A stretch of DNA of 39,878 nucleotides from assembly GCA_903937035.1 (NCBI GenBank), contig CAIZXS010000025.1, forward strand, positions 1-39,878, given 5' to 3'. The notes below the pieces were generated by a model that worked only from the letters and a program-made list of their open reading frames with translations, made no database searches and was not told the origin of the DNA. Source of the stretch: an uncultured bacterium. Lineage in GTDB: Bacteria; Patescibacteriota; Minisyncoccia; Moranbacterales; UBA2206. Made by a program: the position numbers and the translations under genes. Of this stretch, positions 5,599 to 14,212 are shown in pieces (the first letter of the stretch is position 1; each line of letters opens with the position of its first letter).

Positions 5599-7284
5599 CT
5601 ATTTCATTTTTAAATCTGCGGTAATTTTCAAATTCTTGAGTGCAAAAGATTTTCCTTTGCTCATGTCGGATGGATCATAGGTGACTTTGAAATAAACTGT
5701 TTTTACCTCTTTGGTCGGGATAATATCTGCATCAAATGTTTGCACAGTTTCCTGCACCGATTCTTCTGCTGTACCATCAGACACATCAGCCGAAGAATCA
5801 CCTGCCATTGCATCACTACTATCTGCGGTGTCAGCATCCGTACTATCAGCTGTTAGCGATTGATCTGGTGCCAAATTATCGGCAGGATTTATCACGACTT
5901 CTGACTTTTCTGAGAATGGCAAATCAAGCCAATTATTTTTATCCAAAGAATAGCTAATCTTGACTTTCTTCCAGCCTGCCTTGATTTGCGTAGCGGAAAA
6001 ATTCATCTTACTAATTGGGTAAAGCGTATTCACAGCATAACTAAAGCTGGCATCATCTTTGGCAAGGGCATAAACCACCTTGTCATTATCACTAAATTCC
6101 GTTCCCGGAGAGGCGGTCTCCAAATCAAGCAAATCAATGAACTTTCCCTTGGTAGCATAGGAATATTTGCCAGTTCCCTTGCCCAAATATTCAATCTTGG
6201 CACCATTTAAAATCTTTTCGCCATTTTCCACCAACAGGTTCGCACCATGAATCTTGAAATACAAATCACCATCAATTTTATACAGCTCCTTATATCTTCG
6301 CATCACAGCCGAACCATTGGGATAGCTATTATCATCCTTTGCACCCCTAAATTCCAAAAAATTCTGATTGCTAACCCCTACCTTAGAATTATCCACGCCT
6401 AAAAGATAATATTTGCCTTTTTCCAGCGTCGCATAGATTGGGAAAAGAAAAGAGCCATCGACTTGCCGATATTTCTCAATACTATTCATGGAAAAAGTCA
6501 CATCAACAATTGTTGGGCCAACCAAAGAAACTTTGTCTCCACTATACTTCGCTTCTCTCAAGCTCAAGACATATTGCCGACTGCCCGGATTGAGATTCTT
6601 GTTGATATCAATTTTGAACTCCACCGCAGAAATGACAGATTCATCGGCCTGAAAAATTTGTCCCAGCACGATCTTGTTTTCTTTGAGCCAAGGGAAAGAA
6701 TAGTCGGAAACCAACTGACTGATTTTGACCGTATCCATATCTGTTTCTCCCAGGACAGTCTTTTTTAGCAAGGCCAATTCTGATTTGTCAGTGATGTTAA
6801 GCTTAGTTATCCCAACTCCCTGGATAAAAATATTTCCGGAAGAATTTGAATTTTCTTTTTGAAACAATAAGCTGTCAAAGCCATCCGGCAAAAAGAAAAA
6901 TATTTCTTGTTTTTGAAGCTTACTAGAAGGTTCAAACGTCAATGTCTCGAGCTGATTTTCTTTTTCAGAATAGGTATTTAATTTCAAAAGTACCTGCTCA
7001 GCTTGATCTGACTTCCCTTGAAAAGTCAGACGATAAAAACCAGACGGCTGATCTTTGAATATATCATCTACATAATAATAGCCACTCTCTTTTGTTAGCT
7101 GTGGTTTTTCCGGCAGAGCAATCAAACACTTCCCTTCCGTGCACGACTCGGTAGTTTTTTTATGATTAGCATAGAGCACATAGTTGACAGTGAAAGCCAA
7201 CACCAAAAAGCCCAGCGCAAAAAAAATGCGCTTTTCCTTTTCGACAAAACCAACTAATTTTCTATAATCCCATTTTTTCATCAT
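5599..7284 (-). CDS. Membrane-anchored extracytoplasmic protein, function unknown
   Basis: A 561-residue protein with one N-terminal membrane helix (about 20-38) and a large predicted outside portion rich in beta-type sequence. A low-complexity Asp/Ser/Ala/Thr linker lies at about 475-520, followed by a final beta domain. The alternating hydrophobic pattern suggests jelly-roll or carbohydrate-binding-like modules, but I recognise no family. Its start overlaps the stop of the YfhO-like gene by four bases (ATGA, 7281-7284), so the pair is translationally coupled and probably works together at the cell surface. Two adjacent ATG codons (7284 and 7281) are possible starts. Confidence 0.75.
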   Translation of the reverse strand: MMKKWDYRKLVGFVEKEKRIFFALGFLVLAFTVNYVLYANHKKTTESCTEGKCLIALPEKPQLTKESGYYYVDDIFKDQPSGFYRLTFQGKSDQAEQVLLKLNTYSEKENQLETLTFEPSSKLQKQEIFFFLPDGFDSLLFQKENSNSSGNIFIQGVGITKLNITDKSELALLKKTVLGETDMDTVKISQLVSDYSFPWLKENKIVLGQIFQADESVISAVEFKIDINKNLNPGSRQYVLSLREAKYSGDKVSLVGPTIVDVTFSMNSIEKYRQVDGSFLFPIYATLEKGKYYLLGVDNSKVGVSNQNFLEFRGAKDDNSYPNGSAVMRRYKELYKIDGDLYFKIHGANLLVENGEKILNGAKIEYLGKGTGKYSYATKGKFIDLLDLETASPGTEFSDNDKVVYALAKDDASFSYAVNTLYPISKMNFSATQIKAGWKKVKISYSLDKNNWLDLPFSEKSEVVINPADNLAPDQSLTADSTDADTADSSDAMAGDSSADVSDGTAEESVQETVQTFDADIIPTKEVKTVYFKVTYDPSDMSKGKSFALKNLKITADLKMK

Positions 7285-9413
7285 CTTTTTTCTTTTTGAG
7301 CAATATTCCCATTATGCCTCTTTTCTCTCCAAAAAACAAGCGTCAGAAGTGAAAGAAAGATAGCTGCAAGCGAGACTATTCCGCCGAGATAGAGATAGCT
7401 TTGGGGACGATAATAGAGACTAAGCGCAACCTCACCACTTTTTCCAACTGGACAAGTTTTTTGCAATTCACTCGAATTAAGCAAAAATGCATTCAGACCA
7501 GCATCGGTTGCCCGGTGATTTTCCGGCGAAAAAACATTTTTCTTCAAAAGCATGACATACCACGAAGTATCGCCACAAACTACCTGCCAATCGGGGTGAT
7601 AGCTTTCCGAAAAATTGAGCCAAACCGGATCAGCTGATTTTTTGAGTGTAAAGTTCCAGCGCGAAGAGTTTTCCATGGAAAGGTCCACCACTGATTGAAA
7701 AGCGACTTCACGATGAATTGTCTCCGTCTCATTCGTTAGATAGATTCGAGGACGAACTTTTTCGTTTTCAAAAATCAACTTACCTTCCAGTCCTAAATCT
7801 ATTCTCTTCCATTCAGGATTTGATAGTAAATTTTCCACCATGAAAAGATTACCTTTATCCGAAATCAAATAGCGCACTGCCGACTGTGAAAGCAAGCGAG
7901 AAGCGAAATTTTCAGAAAAAAACAACTGATTTTTTTCTCCACCACCCGGCTCTCCACCTTGCAACCCGGCATAATCCTTGATTTTCTTCCAACGGTCCCT
8001 CCTTGTCTCAATTTCATTTATTTTCGGACGATAAGCAGAGAAACTGGCCCACTTGGAATCGCTCGGATTCCAAAGTGTCCGAAATGATCCATCTTGCGAA
8101 AATTGATAGTCACGAATTTTCAATTCATCCTCAGCTATTTTTTGCGGGGTAAACATGCGATGCATTTCTCCACTTAAAATCGGTTTTGCATTCCAAAGAA
8201 AAATTAAACTTGCCCCAAGAAAAACACTCCATTTCAAATACTTTTTCTTCGCGTAATGTTCGGAAATATAGGCCACAAAAGCGCCAATGAGGATGGAATA
8301 TGCAAGTAGTATCGCGACATAAAATTTACTCGCTTCGCGAAAAGCATTGAAGCCGGGAAAATGCCCATGCAACCAAACATAGGCGCTTTTCAAAGGCAGC
8401 GCGTCTTGCTTGGAGACAAAGACGGCAAAAAGAGCGACAACAAACCAAAAAATGATTTTTTTATTCCGCCTATTCCAGTAAGCTCCCAAAATCGCCATCA
8501 TTGGAATCAGCCAGAAATAGATTGGGATTTTTTGCGTATCAAACCAAACTGGCTCGACCCCATTCCAAAAAGGATGAAAGAGTGTCAATGTCTTAGTGAT
8601 ATCCAATGAAAAGTTATTTCCCACTAAATCACGCGCCAAAATGTCATTGCCAGCAAGTGAGCCAGTCATTGCCGTAGGCATAAGCCAAAAAAGATTAAAC
8701 AAAAGAATGAGACAGAAAAAAAGCGCCATGGCGAAAAAATTTTGGCGAAAGAATGTTCTTCTCTGACCCATCCCCTTTTGTGCTAAAAGAAACCAAAAAG
8801 GCACGAAAAGTAGAATAAAAAATAAGATATAGAAAACACGAAAATCATAGGCCCCCACAAAAAGACAAGCCAGTGCTGAGGCGATTAAATTTTTCTTTTT
8901 CCCGGTGTCAAAGTATCGCCAAAAGAAATACATAGCCAGTGGCGCGAATGTCCCTGCGAGTGACAAGGAAAAATGCCCCTGGGTATTAATCGCCAGATAA
9001 TAAGTATTAAAAGAAAAAACAAGCGCAGAGACGAATGCCCCAGTCTTGTTTTTTAAAACTTGCTTTGCGAATAAATAACTAAAAAGCGGAGTGAGAAAAA
9101 TAAGCGGCCAAAAAATAACAAATTTATCCGCCACATTAGAATTAAAATTAAAGGCGCCAAAAAAGGCTGGCAAAATTTTCCAAGCCCACATCCATAAAAA
9201 TAAATTGGAAGAACCCAGACTAATCTGAGAATCCCAGGCGCTATAGTGCAAAAAATCGCGCGATGTCTCAGAAAACCAAAACCAATAATCGGCATGAGTG
9301 AAGATGCCGAAAGATAACCACGAGCGATAGACAACAGCGGAAATCAAAACAAGTAACCAAGTTGGCCAATGCTCTTTTCCCCAAATTTTAACTTTTTCGA
9401 AATATTTTTGCAT
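7281..9413 (-). CDS. YfhO/AftD-like GT-C membrane protein
   Basis: A 710-residue polytopic protein. About eleven membrane helices fill the first 420 residues, an extracytoplasmic domain follows (about 430-655), then one C-terminal helix (about 665-690) and a basic tail. An early acidic patch (HADYWFWFSE) in the first outside loop and FREASKF before a later helix resemble GT-C fold transferases of the YfhO/AftD (DUF3367-like) group, which use polyprenyl-phosphate sugars outside the membrane. The adjacent DPM-like GT2 would supply such a donor. It ends in ATGA overlap with the anchored 561-residue protein. Assignment rests on topology and local motifs, not a strong signature. Confidence 0.75.
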   Translation of the reverse strand: MQKYFEKVKIWGKEHWPTWLLVLISAVVYRSWLSFGIFTHADYWFWFSETSRDFLHYSAWDSQISLGSSNLFLWMWAWKILPAFFGAFNFNSNVADKFVIFWPLIFLTPLFSYLFAKQVLKNKTGAFVSALVFSFNTYYLAINTQGHFSLSLAGTFAPLAMYFFWRYFDTGKKKNLIASALACLFVGAYDFRVFYILFFILLFVPFWFLLAQKGMGQRRTFFRQNFFAMALFFCLILLFNLFWLMPTAMTGSLAGNDILARDLVGNNFSLDITKTLTLFHPFWNGVEPVWFDTQKIPIYFWLIPMMAILGAYWNRRNKKIIFWFVVALFAVFVSKQDALPLKSAYVWLHGHFPGFNAFREASKFYVAILLAYSILIGAFVAYISEHYAKKKYLKWSVFLGASLIFLWNAKPILSGEMHRMFTPQKIAEDELKIRDYQFSQDGSFRTLWNPSDSKWASFSAYRPKINEIETRRDRWKKIKDYAGLQGGEPGGGEKNQLFFSENFASRLLSQSAVRYLISDKGNLFMVENLLSNPEWKRIDLGLEGKLIFENEKVRPRIYLTNETETIHREVAFQSVVDLSMENSSRWNFTLKKSADPVWLNFSESYHPDWQVVCGDTSWYVMLLKKNVFSPENHRATDAGLNAFLLNSSELQKTCPVGKSGEVALSLYYRPQSYLYLGGIVSLAAIFLSLLTLVFWREKRHNGNIAQKEKR

Positions 9414-9474: not shown

Positions 9475-10530
9475 TCACTTTTTACGCCAAATCCTCCAGC
9501 CTAGGAGAATATATACCAATGCATCGCTAAGAACAATCAAGAAATCACGCTTACTAACTTTTGACATGCTCCAGTATTTCCAAGGTCTTTTGATTATCAT
9601 TTTTAACGATTCAATGAAGGTCATATACGTCCCCATAGATACATTTCGAACTACTACTGGTTCACCAAGAGCACAAGCAACAGCATCTGAAATAAAATCC
9701 ACTCCAGACAAAATTGAGGCATTCATTGTCCCCCACGCTCTTGGATTACATTCTAACACGAAAATTTCCACGGTTTTTCCATCAACCCGCAAATCAATAT
9801 GCAAAAAACCACTATACCTTTCACGCGCCACAATTTTTTCGCCAATAGCATAAATCTCTGGGTTAGATATAAATTCAAAAAATCCATGCCTGGTCCACCG
9901 TTGAATTGTCGAGTTTATGATTTTTCCGTTCACAGCTAAAAGACTCAAATCAATATCATATCCATCAATGTACTTTTGCGCCAAAATTGGAAAAATCCCG
10001 AAATATTTTTGCAGGTCAGTTGGATTTTCCATCTTCACAATTCCAACACCAGAATCCCTATCAAGTGGCTTTATTAAAAAAGGATATTCCATTATTCCAT
10101 GCACGAGATATTTTTTATTTTTAACCAAGACAGTTTTTGGATACAATATTGAAAGTTCATCAAGAATTTTCGTCAGCTCCCACTTATTATGCAATCGCTC
10201 TATTACATCAACATTACTAACTAATAGTGTAGGCTTTTTTAAATTGGACTTATTTTTCACCACCCAAAGTGTTGAGTCTAAATCTAGTGGGATAATAACA
10301 TCTATCGCATATTTAATGCTGACTGCATTAATATACTCAACAAGCACTTCGTTTTTGTTTGTATCGGAATATTTTGGATAAGGAAAGTATTTTCTGCAAA
10401 ATCGCGAAAACCGAACCGGAGATGCCGCTGGTCCCATGATAAAAACCCCGAACGCGCGCCGATCAATCGAGCGAATTACTGGCAGAGTTAAAAAATCTCG
10501 CTCTGAAAGAAAAAGAATATTTCGACGCAT
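9475..10530 (-). CDS. ATP-grasp domain protein
   Basis: A 351-residue carbamoyl-phosphate-synthase-type ATP-grasp enzyme. Evidence includes FLIKPLDRDSGVG at 151-163 (K154 binding ATP phosphates), HIDLRVDG at 245-252, and the metal-binding ECNPRAWGT at 260-268 (E260, N262). The N-terminal 110 residues look like a Rossmann-like pre-ATP-grasp domain. Such enzymes ligate a carboxylate to an amine or similar nucleophile; in glycan loci they can decorate sugars, but the substrate here is unknown. A helix-like C-terminal end (about 315-345) is hydrophobic and basic and may touch the membrane. It has its own promoter at 10565-10593, divergent from a small RNA. Confidence 0.85.
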   Translation of the reverse strand: MRRNILFLSERDFLTLPVIRSIDRRAFGVFIMGPAASPVRFSRFCRKYFPYPKYSDTNKNEVLVEYINAVSIKYAIDVIIPLDLDSTLWVVKNKSNLKKPTLLVSNVDVIERLHNKWELTKILDELSILYPKTVLVKNKKYLVHGIMEYPFLIKPLDRDSGVGIVKMENPTDLQKYFGIFPILAQKYIDGYDIDLSLLAVNGKIINSTIQRWTRHGFFEFISNPEIYAIGEKIVARERYSGFLHIDLRVDGKTVEIFVLECNPRAWGTMNASILSGVDFISDAVACALGEPVVVRNVSMGTYMTFIESLKMIIKRPWKYWSMSKVSKRDFLIVLSDALVYILLGWRIWRKK

Positions 10531-10564: not shown

Positions 10565-10593
10565 ATTGTAGCATCCTAATCAGTTTTTGTCCA
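10565..10593 (-). promoter_or_regulatory. Promoter of the ATP-grasp gene
   Basis: On the minus strand: -35 TGGACA (10588-10593), 17-bp spacer, extended -10 TGCTACAAT (10565-10573). The predicted start near 10558 gives a 28-nt leader. Confidence 0.65.
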
Positions 10594-10615
10594 GCATGTG
10601 TATCTTGCATTTTAC

Positions 10616-10625
10616 ATAGGCCTAT
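10616..10625. promoter_or_regulatory. Palindrome ATAGGCCTAT between divergent promoters
   Basis: A perfect 10-bp palindrome placed between the -35 boxes of the ATP-grasp promoter and the small-RNA promoter, 13 bp upstream of the latter. The position suits an operator, but no regulator is identified. Confidence 0.35.
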
Positions 10626-10637
10626 ACGGACTTGCTG

Positions 10638-10666
10638 TTGACAGATATCCTATTAGCCCCTATAAT
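10638..10666 (+). promoter_or_regulatory. Consensus sigma70-type promoter of a small RNA
   Basis: -35 TTGACA (10638-10643), exactly 17 bp, then -10 TATAAT (10661-10666). Both hexamers are perfect consensus on the plus strand, where no protein gene follows. The predicted start is near 10673. Confidence 0.8.
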
Positions 10667-10672
10667 AAAATC

Positions 10673-10750
10673 AAATGTTAGCCAAACACTGTCCGTACGG
10701 CAGGTTTCCCGCAAGGGATAGGCTATTCCCCCTATAAACGGGGGTTTTTG
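10673..10750 (+). ncRNA. Putative structured small RNA
   Basis: About 78 nt between a consensus promoter and an intrinsic terminator, the only well-supported plus-strand transcript in the window. A closing helix TAGCC/GGCTA (10679-10683 with 10721-10725) encloses two hairpins: CTG.CC/GGCAG (10689-10703) with a GUAC loop, and UCCC-GCAA-GGGA (10707-10718), a GNRA tetraloop. The terminator stem follows. No open reading frame of note is present. It runs convergently into the DUF3800 gene, whose stop codon is at 10754-10756, so readthrough of either transcript would give antisense overlap. I do not recognise it as 6S, SRP, tmRNA or a known riboswitch. The fold was derived by eye. Confidence 0.65.
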
Positions 10751-10755
10751 TTTTT
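10728..10755 (+). terminator. Intrinsic terminator of the small RNA
   Basis: Stem CCCCC/GGGGG (10728-10732 with 10740-10744), 7-nt loop, then TTTTTGTTTTT. It works only on the plus strand, since the minus strand lacks a T tract after the stem. Confidence 0.85.
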
Positions 10756-11320
10756 AGAGTTCAGAAATAAGTTTTTCTTTTATCATCCTAGTCACAGTTT
10801 TTTTGGCCCAATCATTATTATCATCCCGATCCCTAATTAATCCACAAATAGCATCCACGAGACGGATGAAAGCATTATTTTCATCTTTTTTCACTCCCCT
10901 TATTTTTCTAGTTCTAATTCTCAAATCCCGAAGTCCCCGACTGAAGACCTCAATTTCTTTCTTTTTTAACCCATCAACAAACACGGTGACTTTATAGTCA
11001 TACTTACCAGATTTTTTCAATATGGCTTTCGCTGTGGCAAAAGAAGTTAGTTCTATATATTTTCTTGTATCACTGAACATCTCAAAAAAAATTCTTTCCT
11101 TCAGCTTATCCATTCTTAAAATACTTTCGATGTACGCCTTGCGAAACTCATGACGAGCTTTGTTCCATTTTACGTTTTTCTTCCCGCTTTCAATCTCAAT
11201 TTCTTCTAATTCTTCACAAATATCTTTAATCTCATGTTCTAAGATCAAAATACTCACCACAAAAACAAGGCCCTTTGTGTCCTGACCTGATTCATCGACA
11301 TAGGCATATAGTTTTTTCAT
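10754..11320 (-). CDS. DUF3800 domain protein
   Basis: A protein of 188 residues from the preferred ATG at 11320; in-frame ATGs at 11332 and 11329 would add three or four residues. The N-terminus MKKLYAYVDESG carries the DUF3800 signature with D9 and E10, and a later acidic segment near VDAICGLIRDRDDNND matches the family's second conserved region with Asp residues. The fold is thought to be RNase H/nuclease-like, and DUF3800 proteins occur in mobile and defence-associated loci, including some retron groups (from memory). Catalysis is unproven. It interrupts a run of glycan genes, has its own promoter inside the preceding gene's 3' end, and converges with a structured small RNA. Confidence 0.85.
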   Translation of the reverse strand: MKKLYAYVDESGQDTKGLVFVVSILILEHEIKDICEELEEIEIESGKKNVKWNKARHEFRKAYIESILRMDKLKERIFFEMFSDTRKYIELTSFATAKAILKKSGKYDYKVTVFVDGLKKKEIEVFSRGLRDLRIRTRKIRGVKKDENNAFIRLVDAICGLIRDRDDNNDWAKKTVTRMIKEKLISEL

Positions 11321-11368
11321 TATAGCCATCATTTTTATTTTTTAATTAGTTTGAGTTATTACACTGAT

Positions 11369-11397
11369 ATAATAACACTAAGCTATTTTCGGGTCAA
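11369..11397 (-). promoter_or_regulatory. Promoter of the DUF3800 gene
   Basis: Minus strand -35 TTGACC (11392-11397), 17-bp spacer, -10 TATTAT (11369-11374). The predicted start near 11362 gives a leader of about 42 nt. The -35 lies within the last codons of the upstream 944-residue gene, so the DUF3800 gene can be transcribed on its own. Confidence 0.65.
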
Positions 11398-14212
11398 GAC
11401 TTTTTTTCTTTTTCCATTTGCGATGGTCATATGCCAAGTAAATTACACAACCTAGTAGTGTCGACAAAGATATCGCCAAGCCGACATAAAAAAGTCTCTG
11501 CGGCCAAAACTCCACCACCATTTCAAAATCATAGGAACCATCAGGGTTTTGAACACAGTCCCCAGATAGACCTCGATCCCCCATTTTGATATTTGAGATT
11601 TGATTTTTTAATTTAGAATTTGATTGACAAATCAAATTCGTATCGATCACCCAAGAATTGGCATACCCATTCGCCATCAAATGATTGGCGTTATTCTCAA
11701 TCGGACGCCGAAACCAAGTTTCAAACAGATTACCATTGGGTAAATTGTCATTTTGAATGGTATCTTGGAAATTCTTAGACACAAAATCAATCTTATATTT
11801 TTCCACATAATCAAACTGCTCTTTTCCATCGACCCATTTTTTGTGTTCAATGGTTTTTAGTTTTCCATCACCCAATGTTGTAATATAACCATTACTAAGA
11901 TAGTTTTGCAGCTCATCTTTTGATGCTTGGTCATCAGTATTTCCGTCTAATATTTTATATTTGGAAGTTTGATCGTCGAAAGTTTCCGCCCTAGGCGGAT
12001 CAGCCTCGGGCTGAAATTTTGAATTGTCATTTTGCATTTTGAGATTTACATTTTGATTTAGATATGCTTTCCACCCATCATTAAAACTCTCCGAAAACAC
12101 CAAAGGAAAAACACCCGATGCGCCGTGCACTCGCACGCGATATTTGGTCGGATTGATTTTTTTGAATTCCAAGGTTGGCGACATCACTCCACCTTCTGTC
12201 GCACAACTATTGTCATTCCCGCGGAGGCGGGAATCCAGTGTGGAATTATTGCTACTACTATCCAGTTCACTGCTACTGCGATTATTATTTTTTAATTTAT
12301 CCAGCATCCCCTCTTTCCCAGTATTCTGCCCAGCCAAAAAAACAGCTGAACGTATTTGCCAATCTTTATCCGAAAGGATCAGGGGAAGGCTTTCAATTGG
12401 ACGACCAGAAACAAGAGAGTATTGTGGAGTGTAGAAATGAGGAAGAAATTGATCTTTGTTTAGTTCATAAATCGACAACTTTCCAATCTCAGTTTTATCC
12501 GTTAAAAAGCTACTATTATCAGCACCCGCCAGAATAACATCTTGTCCAATGAAATTCACATCCGTTTTTTTCTTTTCTAAAAAACCAGCACCCAGATCAC
12601 TTCTAGCCACCAAAAATCCCACACTTCTAATATTCTCATAGCTCAGAAACCGCTTGTCATTAATAATTAAATATTTTTGCAACCGCTTATTGAGCTTGTC
12701 ATTATAGTTTTCATCATAAGTAACGCTGTTGATAAAAGTTGGCTTTGAAATAAAATAACCAAGCGGATCTTGCATATCATAGTTTTGGTTTGACCACTCA
12801 AATGTCTGCATCCAACTGATAACGGGTGCTACTTGAACCTTGCTATCAATTTTCTTTTTTGAAATATATTCATTAATCTGATAGTAGTAATCTGGAATTC
12901 TAAATGGCTTATATTTAGGAAAAAGGAAATAATAGGGAACGAATTTGATTAAAATCATCGTCAAAATAAGTCCAAAAAAAAATGTTTTGCGTTTTTCTGT
13001 TTTCAAAAAGTCAAAAATTTTAATAGAAGAATATGAAACTAACACAATTAAAATTGGTAAAATAAGCCGATTAAATTTAAAATAATCCCGGAAAAGCTTA
13101 AACCCAGGAACATAGCTCCAAAAGATATTAAAAATTCCCATTGGATTATTTGGTCCTAATGAAAAAGTAAGGAAAACAACATAAAGAATCCAAAGCGTGA
13201 TGAGCTGGATTTTTCTTTTCTCATTTTGCTCTTTTATAATAAAATATATACTAAAAATCGCTAACGAAACAAAGAAAAATGAAGCCACAATATCAAAAGG
13301 GATAAGCGCGGCTGGATAAAACTTACCGACATGATCACTGGTTGTGGAAAAGATAAAATTCAAAGATGGCCGATTTAAATATGCAGTAACAAAATCCAAT
13401 ACACCATCCGTATTGGCACTGTTTTCTGAATATTCCAAATAGGCTGAACTTTTTGATAATGCCAAGTTGATATTATTAAAAATCCAATAACTATTTAACA
13501 ATAAAAAAGCAGCAACGGTTATAAGGATACTTCTGGGCAAACATTCATAAGCTCTTTTTTTTAATAAAAATTTTTTAGCAAAATACTCCACCAGCAAGAA
13601 AGAAAAAATAAAAAGGACTGACAGGAGCAACGCATGAAAATCAATCGGCACAAGGAGGAGCGCAATGAATACGAAAAATATGTATGACTTATTAGCCGGA
13701 TTGTTCTTGAATTTTATAAAACAAAAGAAGGACACAAGAAAAAAAAGAACACTCCAAATAATAGTCAAATTGGAAGTAAGCCAAGTCCTCATCATTTCAT
13801 TAGAAATCGAGAAAAGTGAAATTACCAAAATCAACCAGTCAAATCGCGTCTCATGAAAATCGAGAATTTCCTTGGTTATTTTGAATGAAAAATAGACGAT
13901 AGCCCCAAATAATACTACTGAGGATAAGATACTCGTAAGTGGGAATCCTATTGATTCAAAAAACACCTTCAAGGTGATGGCAAACAAAGATGGAAAAAGC
14001 AGACCCTGCGAATCAAGAGTCTCACTCCAAGAAAATAAGCTGCGCCAAAAATCACGAAAACTATTCACACTTAATTGAGTATCCGAATTTGCAAATAAAA
14101 ACGATCCCAAATCGGCCTCTTTTGCGATTAAAAAGATTAACGCAAAAAATAGCATCCATAGGAACACTTTTTTATTCAAACATTTAGCAACAAAACATTT
14201 CTTTATTAGCAT
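11378..14212 (-). CDS. Large YfhO/AftD-like GT-C membrane protein with repeat-encoded inserts
   Basis: A 944-residue protein with roughly a dozen membrane helices in the first 430 residues, a long extracytoplasmic domain (about 440-890), a C-terminal helix (about 898-920) and a Lys-rich tail. FRDYFKFNR before a later helix and the SLGPNNP loop resemble AftD/YfhO-type GT-C proteins and parallel FREASKF in the 710-residue protein. The role is probably transfer of a sugar from a polyprenyl carrier outside the membrane. The outside domain carries two repeat insertions in frame: LDSRLRGND near residues 659-667 (12212-12238) and PEADPPRAE near 733-742 (11985-12014), within a polar Asn/Ser-rich linker that apparently tolerates them. 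Confidence 0.75.
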   Translation of the reverse strand: MLIKKCFVAKCLNKKVFLWMLFFALIFLIAKEADLGSFLFANSDTQLSVNSFRDFWRSLFSWSETLDSQGLLFPSLFAITLKVFFESIGFPLTSILSSVVLFGAIVYFSFKITKEILDFHETRFDWLILVISLFSISNEMMRTWLTSNLTIIWSVLFFLVSFFCFIKFKNNPANKSYIFFVFIALLLVPIDFHALLLSVLFIFSFLLVEYFAKKFLLKKRAYECLPRSILITVAAFLLLNSYWIFNNINLALSKSSAYLEYSENSANTDGVLDFVTAYLNRPSLNFIFSTTSDHVGKFYPAALIPFDIVASFFFVSLAIFSIYFIIKEQNEKRKIQLITLWILYVVFLTFSLGPNNPMGIFNIFWSYVPGFKLFRDYFKFNRLILPILIVLVSYSSIKIFDFLKTEKRKTFFFGLILTMILIKFVPYYFLFPKYKPFRIPDYYYQINEYISKKKIDSKVQVAPVISWMQTFEWSNQNYDMQDPLGYFISKPTFINSVTYDENYNDKLNKRLQKYLIINDKRFLSYENIRSVGFLVARSDLGAGFLEKKKTDVNFIGQDVILAGADNSSFLTDKTEIGKLSIYELNKDQFLPHFYTPQYSLVSGRPIESLPLILSDKDWQIRSAVFLAGQNTGKEGMLDKLKNNNRSSSELDSSSNNSTLDSRLRGNDNSCATEGGVMSPTLEFKKINPTKYRVRVHGASGVFPLVFSESFNDGWKAYLNQNVNLKMQNDNSKFQPEADPPRAETFDDQTSKYKILDGNTDDQASKDELQNYLSNGYITTLGDGKLKTIEHKKWVDGKEQFDYVEKYKIDFVSKNFQDTIQNDNLPNGNLFETWFRRPIENNANHLMANGYANSWVIDTNLICQSNSKLKNQISNIKMGDRGLSGDCVQNPDGSYDFEMVVEFWPQRLFYVGLAISLSTLLGCVIYLAYDHRKWKKKKSLDPKIA
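11985..12014. repeat. Tandem 15-bp palindromes inside the 944-residue gene
   Basis: TCCGCCCTAGGCGGA directly followed by TCAGCCTCGGGCTGA, the same two-palindrome layout as at 1135-1164. It is in frame, encoding PEADPPRAE. Confidence 0.75.
12212..12238. repeat. REP-like GTCATTCCCGC repeat inside a coding sequence
   Basis: Stem TTCCCGC/GCGGGAA (12216-12222 with 12227-12233) flanked by GTCA and TCCAG. It is related to the intergenic element at 35764-35972. Read on the minus strand it gives the peptide LDSRLRGND, which I recall from many repeat-bearing bacterial proteins. Confidence 0.8.

Follow-up and report, generated by a model that had tools for sequence, protein, structure and literature searches.

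A short gap in a glycan gene cluster of an uncultured bacterium (Patescibacteriota, Moranbacterales, UBA2206) holds what looks like a small RNA gene facing the 3' end of a DUF3800 gene, which raises the question of whether the two form one functional unit and, if they do, which partner acts on the other. The window analysed here is the whole stretch of 39,878 nt (contig CAIZXS010000025.1). An initial annotation made from its letters had proposed an RNA plus effector module or, alternatively, an antisense regulator of DUF3800.

Results

Architecture of the RNA gene

Analysis of the window confirmed the perfect sigma-70 consensus promoter TTGACA-17-TATAAT described in the initial annotation, located on the plus strand at 10638–10666; among 51 promoter-like sites scanned between 5 and 20 kb of the window, it is the sole 12/12 match. 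It precedes a noncoding RNA gene of about 80 nt on the plus strand (10673–10755), with a predicted start near 10673 and an end in a U tract, which was defined from the sequence, from a covariance model and from homologues lying beside DUF3800 genes. The covariance model matches the window RNA at 10677–10749 with 85.2 bits, and the window genome carries a single copy. The RNA is predicted to form a plus-strand three-way junction (10679–10725), in which the closing helix P1 (10679–10683/10721–10725) encloses two hairpins. P2 (10689–10703) is a bulged hairpin, CUGUCC-GUAC-GGCAG, corresponding to an CCGUAUGG-like loop region in the homologues, and P3 (10707–10718) is a hairpin with a GCAA tetraloop, UCCC-GCAA-GGGA, which varies in length and loop among homologues. 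The junction is followed by P4 (10728–10755), an intrinsic terminator CCCCC-UAUAAAC-GGGGG with its stem at 10728–10732/10740–10744. The U tract (10745–10755) overlaps the DUF3800 stop codon (10754–10756), so that the terminator and the stop abut as had been claimed.

The RNA gene sits between an ATP-grasp gene (9475–10530, minus strand) and the DUF3800 gene. ATP-grasp, glycosyltransferase and methyltransferase genes flank the module on the minus strand, in agreement with the glycan surroundings noted initially. Three large minus-strand proteins of the glycan cluster (11381–14212, 7284–9413 and 5602–7284) had no Pfam match at E 0.001. The 10-bp palindrome reported upstream of the RNA (ATAGGCCTAT) was located at 10616–10625, and no counterpart was seen upstream of the RNA of the nearest relative (L024). 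The ATP-grasp neighbour, sought for an empty-site comparison, was also absent from the six other genomes of the genus.

The RNA had been described as free of reading frames. It does contain a 20-codon ATG frame starting at 10675, but a frame of at least 18 codons starting near the RNA 5' end was present in only 16 of 57 homologues. The frame is not conserved, and a coding small ORF was rejected as the function of the RNA. The single-sequence folding energy of the window RNA is not exceptional (z -1.53), and the proof of the RNA therefore rests on comparison.

Comparative evidence for the RNA fold

RNAalifold applied to ten RNAs recovered P1 to P4 unprompted, that is, the closing helix, bulged hairpin, GNRA hairpin and terminator of the initial annotation. 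A covariance model built from these ten RNAs retrieved the 57 RNAs that make up the alignment used below. In this alignment, 20 of 21 base pairs vary on both sides yet stay paired, and 89.2% of all cells are paired. The covariation score was 0.497, compared with 0.175 for shuffled and at most 0.077 for slid controls; the alignment is fitted to the model and hence biased towards it, and both controls lie far off. All five pairs of P1 (96.2% of cells paired) and all six pairs of P3 have changed on both sides, while P4 is paired in 97.2% of cells (54 distinct sequences). The P1 cells include 27 G-U and 2 A-C combinations, and this excess indicates that the plus strand, that of the small RNA, is the one under selection and hence the functional one. 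Covariation across the homologues shows that the RNA is structured and conserved and, judged at the sequence level, functional as a plus-strand transcript. The promoters of the RNAs at 40 related loci scored a mean of 10/12 against the consensus, compared with 5.7 in random stretches of the same loci.

The terminator loop (10733–10739 in the window) that follows CCCCC is alike in distant phyla (UAACCAC, UAUAAAC, UUAAAC), which hints at a role of P4 beyond termination. An RNA-guided nuclease of the TnpB, IscB or IS110 kind was rejected: no unpaired hypervariable segment was found, and, with a very short predicted leader before P1 and a variable P3 that is a paired hairpin, there is no room for a guide.

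Linkage of the RNA to DUF3800 genes

In two genomes of the family to which the window genome belongs (G005 and G009), DNA similarity to the RNA coincides with protein similarity to DUF3800. The intact DUF3800 genes found at that stage all showed one layout downstream: on the opposite strand, a promoter is followed by a short RNA whose terminator ends close to or at the DUF3800 stop. A protein-first scan of one genome per species (84,980 species) gave 64 DUF3800 relatives. Most are from Patescibacteria, and others carry the titles Chloroflexota, Acidobacteria, Planctomycetota, Verrucomicrobia and Omnitrophica, with some titles, such as Klebsiella and Akkermansia, looking unreliable. The 64 loci comprise one cut by a contig end, 11 with broken genes (L056, L064, L066, L076, L078, L079, L082, L083, L085, L086 and L087) and 52 with intact genes. 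The model search detected the RNA, downstream of the gene and on the opposite strand, in 50 of the 52 intact loci; of the remaining two, L069 has an RNA recognised by eye and L055 a reduced form that lacks P3. The RNA was kept in 10 of the 11 loci with a broken DUF3800 gene, and across the protein-first and RNA-first searches no intact DUF3800 gene was seen without an RNA, the reduced RNA of L055 included. Some RNAs (L046, L061 and L071) extend into the end of the DUF3800 reading frame.

The initial annotation had suggested a covariance-model search for covarying homologues beside DUF3800 genes. The homologues do covary and most are DUF3800-linked, but the linkage is not universal. In an RNA-first search of 384 genomes of the class, all seven strong matches adjoin DUF3800. 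Six weak matches of the same search (L095–L100) were discarded, none being beside DUF3800 and their number being about that expected by chance at the threshold. A search of 380 genomes of the phylum gave 23 RNAs, of which 15 adjoin DUF3800 genes (some broken) and 8 do not; three of these eight solo RNAs have another module no more than about 2 kb away. Several solo RNAs occur in genomes G455, G552, G557 and G680, where no intact cognate gene was found beside any RNA. A conserved structured RNA beside a DUF3800 gene, the mark of DUF3800-associated RNAs, is thus present at the locus.

Clusters of several RNA copies with zero or one gene were observed at L147 (1441–1572), L154, L155, L138 and L153, with one-gene clusters on contig 14 of G485 and contig 29 of G537. 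These multi-copy clusters look as if the RNAs had outlived their partners.

Placement among DUF3800-associated RNA families

DUF3800 RNAs were reportedly first described by Weinberg in 2017. In a search of the window against Rfam 15, no match was obtained at the gathering threshold, DUF3800-II and DUF3800-IX included, and nothing relevant at the lax threshold of E ≤ 5. The relatives' RNAs of the present family are present at their loci and likewise have no Rfam match. More distant DUF3800 clades carry a DUF3800-II or DUF3800-IX RNA at the same convergent position.

Comparison with DUF3800-IX (RF02968), which was convergent downstream of DUF3800 genes at 10 of the 20 scanned loci of the class, revealed a likeness in sequence motif. 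Its consensus, CCGAAcuGUCgCCGUaUGGcGGCgUgCC...GGcUAGG, comprises CCGAA, an CCGUAUGG hairpin, a second hairpin and CUAGG in the same three-way plan as the present RNA, and the motif CCGAA...CCGUAUGG...UAGG is common to both. The two families are nevertheless separable: the DUF3800-IX model gave no cmscan match to the window RNA or its relatives even at lax E-values, the present-family model R2 recovered only 1 of 10 DUF3800-IX RNAs (20.6 bits), and the DUF3800-IX proteins form a clade separate from the proteins of the present family. DUF3800-II (RF02961) resembles the present RNA in its convergent position, three-way junction, GA-rich joint and CUA ahead of the closing strand, whereas its conserved letters differ, model R2 matched none of its members and its proteins form a separate clade.

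Five RNA classes were distinguished, namely A (which includes the window RNA), B, C, II and IX, with A, B and C being labels of our own. Mapping these classes onto a tree of 67 DUF3800 proteins required four changes, which is the minimum, compared with a mean of 27.3 after shuffling, and this comparison of sequences shows that RNA class and protein clade are co-inherited. Since the window RNA lacks an Rfam match, occupies the position of DUF3800-II and DUF3800-IX and has a motif in common with the latter, it is, on sequence grounds and with newness judged against Rfam 15, either a new family or a distant branch within the known DUF3800-RNA kind. The pairing itself is not a new kind of system, as DUF3800-linked small RNA families are already listed in Rfam (PMC11701678).

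Several loci combine or extend these classes. L028 (301–2050) holds tandem DUF3800 modules with RNAs of different classes, DUF3800-II (853–922) and the present RNA (1975–2050), and L067 (1193–3633) a tandem pair of type-B modules with one RNA each. At L147, a type-B tail lies immediately ahead of a type-C RNA with no gene. In type-C RNAs (L037, L055, L057, L078 and L080), the terminator is preceded by an additional CCAGC...GCUGG-type hairpin. One genome from the family of the window genome also carries a SAM riboswitch at L016 (1160–1300), close to a DUF3800-II module.

Predicted structure of the DUF3800 protein

The convergent minus-strand gene (10754–11332) encodes a protein of 192 aa, and its initial assignment to DUF3800 was borne out by Pfam PF12686 (E 4.5e-9, 37.6 bits against a cut-off of 21). 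The promoter proposed for it, TTGACC-17-TATTAT with an extended -10, was found as a putative site on the minus strand (11397–11369) with a 10/12 consensus match; stretches upstream of the DUF3800 genes of relatives averaged 6.95/12, and this site is therefore not a conserved feature.

The AlphaFold2 model of DUF3800 (pLDDT 92.7) has a predicted RNase H2-like fold, its best PDB matches by Foldseek being RNase HII/H2 (E 4e-6, query TM scores of 0.47–0.57). Residues D13, E14, G16, D120, D150 and D160 are conserved in 50 homologues. In the model, strand 1 ends in D13 and E14 and strand 4 in D120, and D150 is in the loop preceding the last helix. The catalytic residues of Thermotoga maritima RNase H2 (Tm-RNase H2) are D18, E19, D107 and D124 (PMC3025331), and by secondary-structure position these four carboxylates are placed as D13, E14, D120 and D150 of DUF3800. 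D160, a further conserved carboxylate in the last helix, distinguishes DUF3800 from RNase HII/H2. The window genome encodes its own RNase HII elsewhere, apart from DUF3800, and hhalign detected no sequence kinship between the two (probability 0.6%). Searches at the sequence level connected DUF3800 neither with RNase HII nor with any solved structure, and the kinship with RNase H2 thus rests on fold and residue placement. DUF3800 has earlier been described as having an RNase H fold with catalytic rearrangement and linked to putative noncoding RNAs (PMC10910872); our model agrees with that remark on the fold. The model thus gives DUF3800, with high confidence, an RNase H2-like fold with carboxylates at the places of the RNase H2 active site, and we infer that the protein is an active metal-dependent nuclease and that it binds the small RNA.

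Neighbourhood of the modules

Neighbours vary by locus and include tRNA synthetase, UDG, NUDIX and GIY-YIG genes and, once, a TOTE primase together with a SIR2 protein. No conserved third gene was seen beside the modules across loci. As the neighbours differ between loci, the conserved unit consists of the RNA and DUF3800 and nothing else. The modules do not share a defence neighbourhood, their neighbours being mostly ordinary; no relatives were found in phage and plasmid collections or viral contigs; and PADLOC identified no relevant family, its sole match being a weak, local one to a type I specificity subunit. With neither such relatives nor a relevant PADLOC match, a defence reading is not supported.

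GIY-YIG nuclease-like reading frames adjoin RNAs at L060, L137, L141 and L144 and are possibly mobile elements using the same sites. A protein family starting IEIDQSGKVEETA occurs beside a solo RNA (L143, 1722–2309 in the oriented locus) and upstream of a module (L061, 2390–2899), and may be another small RNase-H-like protein.

Discussion

The RNA plus effector module proposed for this locus is upheld by the covariation of the RNA, the constant convergent linkage, the co-inheritance of RNA class and protein clade, and the RNase H2-like model with its matching carboxylates. The reading that we favour, although we put it somewhat short of an even chance, is a two-gene module in which a folded small RNA acts as the antidote restraining a convergent RNase H2-like DUF3800 nuclease. 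The small RNA would be transcribed from its own promoter, independently of the DUF3800 gene, and the strength of that promoter would supply it in excess. The nuclease would recognise and bind its RNA, and the resulting RNA-protein complex would keep it inactive; DUF3800 would then be the harmful partner and the RNA the antidote. The evidence from these genomes that bears on this direction is the decay pattern. That the RNA outlives the gene, and that an intact gene is never seen without an RNA, favours an RNA-restrained nuclease but does not prove it: with about seven times the length of the RNA, the gene would be the first to break even under purely neutral decay, and the asymmetry is no more than suggestive. 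We found no assay of toxicity, nuclease activity or RNA binding for this DUF3800 clade.

The same pairing can be read in other directions. The RNA could be a cofactor that activates a DUF3800 nuclease complex, or forms a structural part of it, and is needed for a useful activity of that complex, such as defence or RNA processing, and not for its restraint; the constant pairing and co-inheritance would fit, as would the occurrence of DUF3800 proteins as accessories in some V-A2 and VI-F CRISPR loci (PMC12669027) and with Cas12a2 (PMC10910872). We nevertheless regard a cofactor role as unlikely, if a serious candidate, because the RNA has no variable guide-like stretch and RNAs survive alone in genomes where no intact partner was found beside any of them. 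The roles could also be reversed, with a harmful or regulatory RNA that DUF3800 destroys or buffers. An RNase-like fold suits RNA removal, and a strain-specific DUF3800 gene in the accessory genome of Legionella was scored essential and listed among antitoxin genes (PMC7811196), which suggests the opposite role for that homologue. Against it, RNAs with a recognisable promoter and fold survive beside broken DUF3800 genes, and those of G455, G552, G557 and G680 do so with no intact cognate gene found adjoining. Weighing the decay pattern, the gene-length caveat and the Legionella case together, we consider DUF3800 as the antidote quite improbable, the cofactor somewhat less so, and the antidote RNA the most probable of the three.

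Two further explanations fare worse. The antisense regulator suggested initially would limit DUF3800 through the 3'-end overlap or polymerase collision, and the convergent genes, the terminator overlapping the stop codon and the RNAs of L046, L061 and L071 that run into the reading-frame end all suit it. Pairing with the gene needs complementarity and has no use for a covarying three-way junction; moreover, the G-U cells mark the small RNA strand and RNAs survive away from the gene, which makes antisense action alone very unlikely. That a hairpin and promoter came together by chance and have no function would agree with the unexceptional folding energy, but is refuted by conservation, covariation and linkage over several phyla, and we give it virtually no weight.

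The favoured antidote RNA invites comparison, from general knowledge, with type III toxin-antitoxin systems such as ToxIN, which also pair a nuclease with a folded RNA. Type III RNAs consist of repeats, are encoded ahead of the toxin gene within one operon and undergo cleavage by the toxin. The present module has instead a single RNA, which lies on the opposite strand under a promoter of its own, and a nuclease with a predicted RNase H2-like fold; no RNA repeats precede the nuclease gene in a shared operon. It is conceivable, though on balance doubtful, that DUF3800 modules make up a toxin-antitoxin or abortive-defence type of their own with a very wide distribution: a single folded small RNA from the opposite strand would inhibit an RNase H2-like nuclease, and the RNAs of the DUF3800 families in Rfam and of the present unlisted one would serve as antidotes to a single protein superfamily.

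We found no paper in the open literature that states what DUF3800-linked RNAs do. The present analysis adds an RNA family that Rfam does not list and that occurs in several phyla, connects RNA class with protein clade, and shows a motif common to this RNA and DUF3800-IX. The decay patterns and the protein fold together yield a testable prediction, an RNase H2-like nuclease with an RNA partner. Because DUF3800 proteins are also accessories in some CRISPR loci, the function of this simple two-part module would help to explain those proteins as well.
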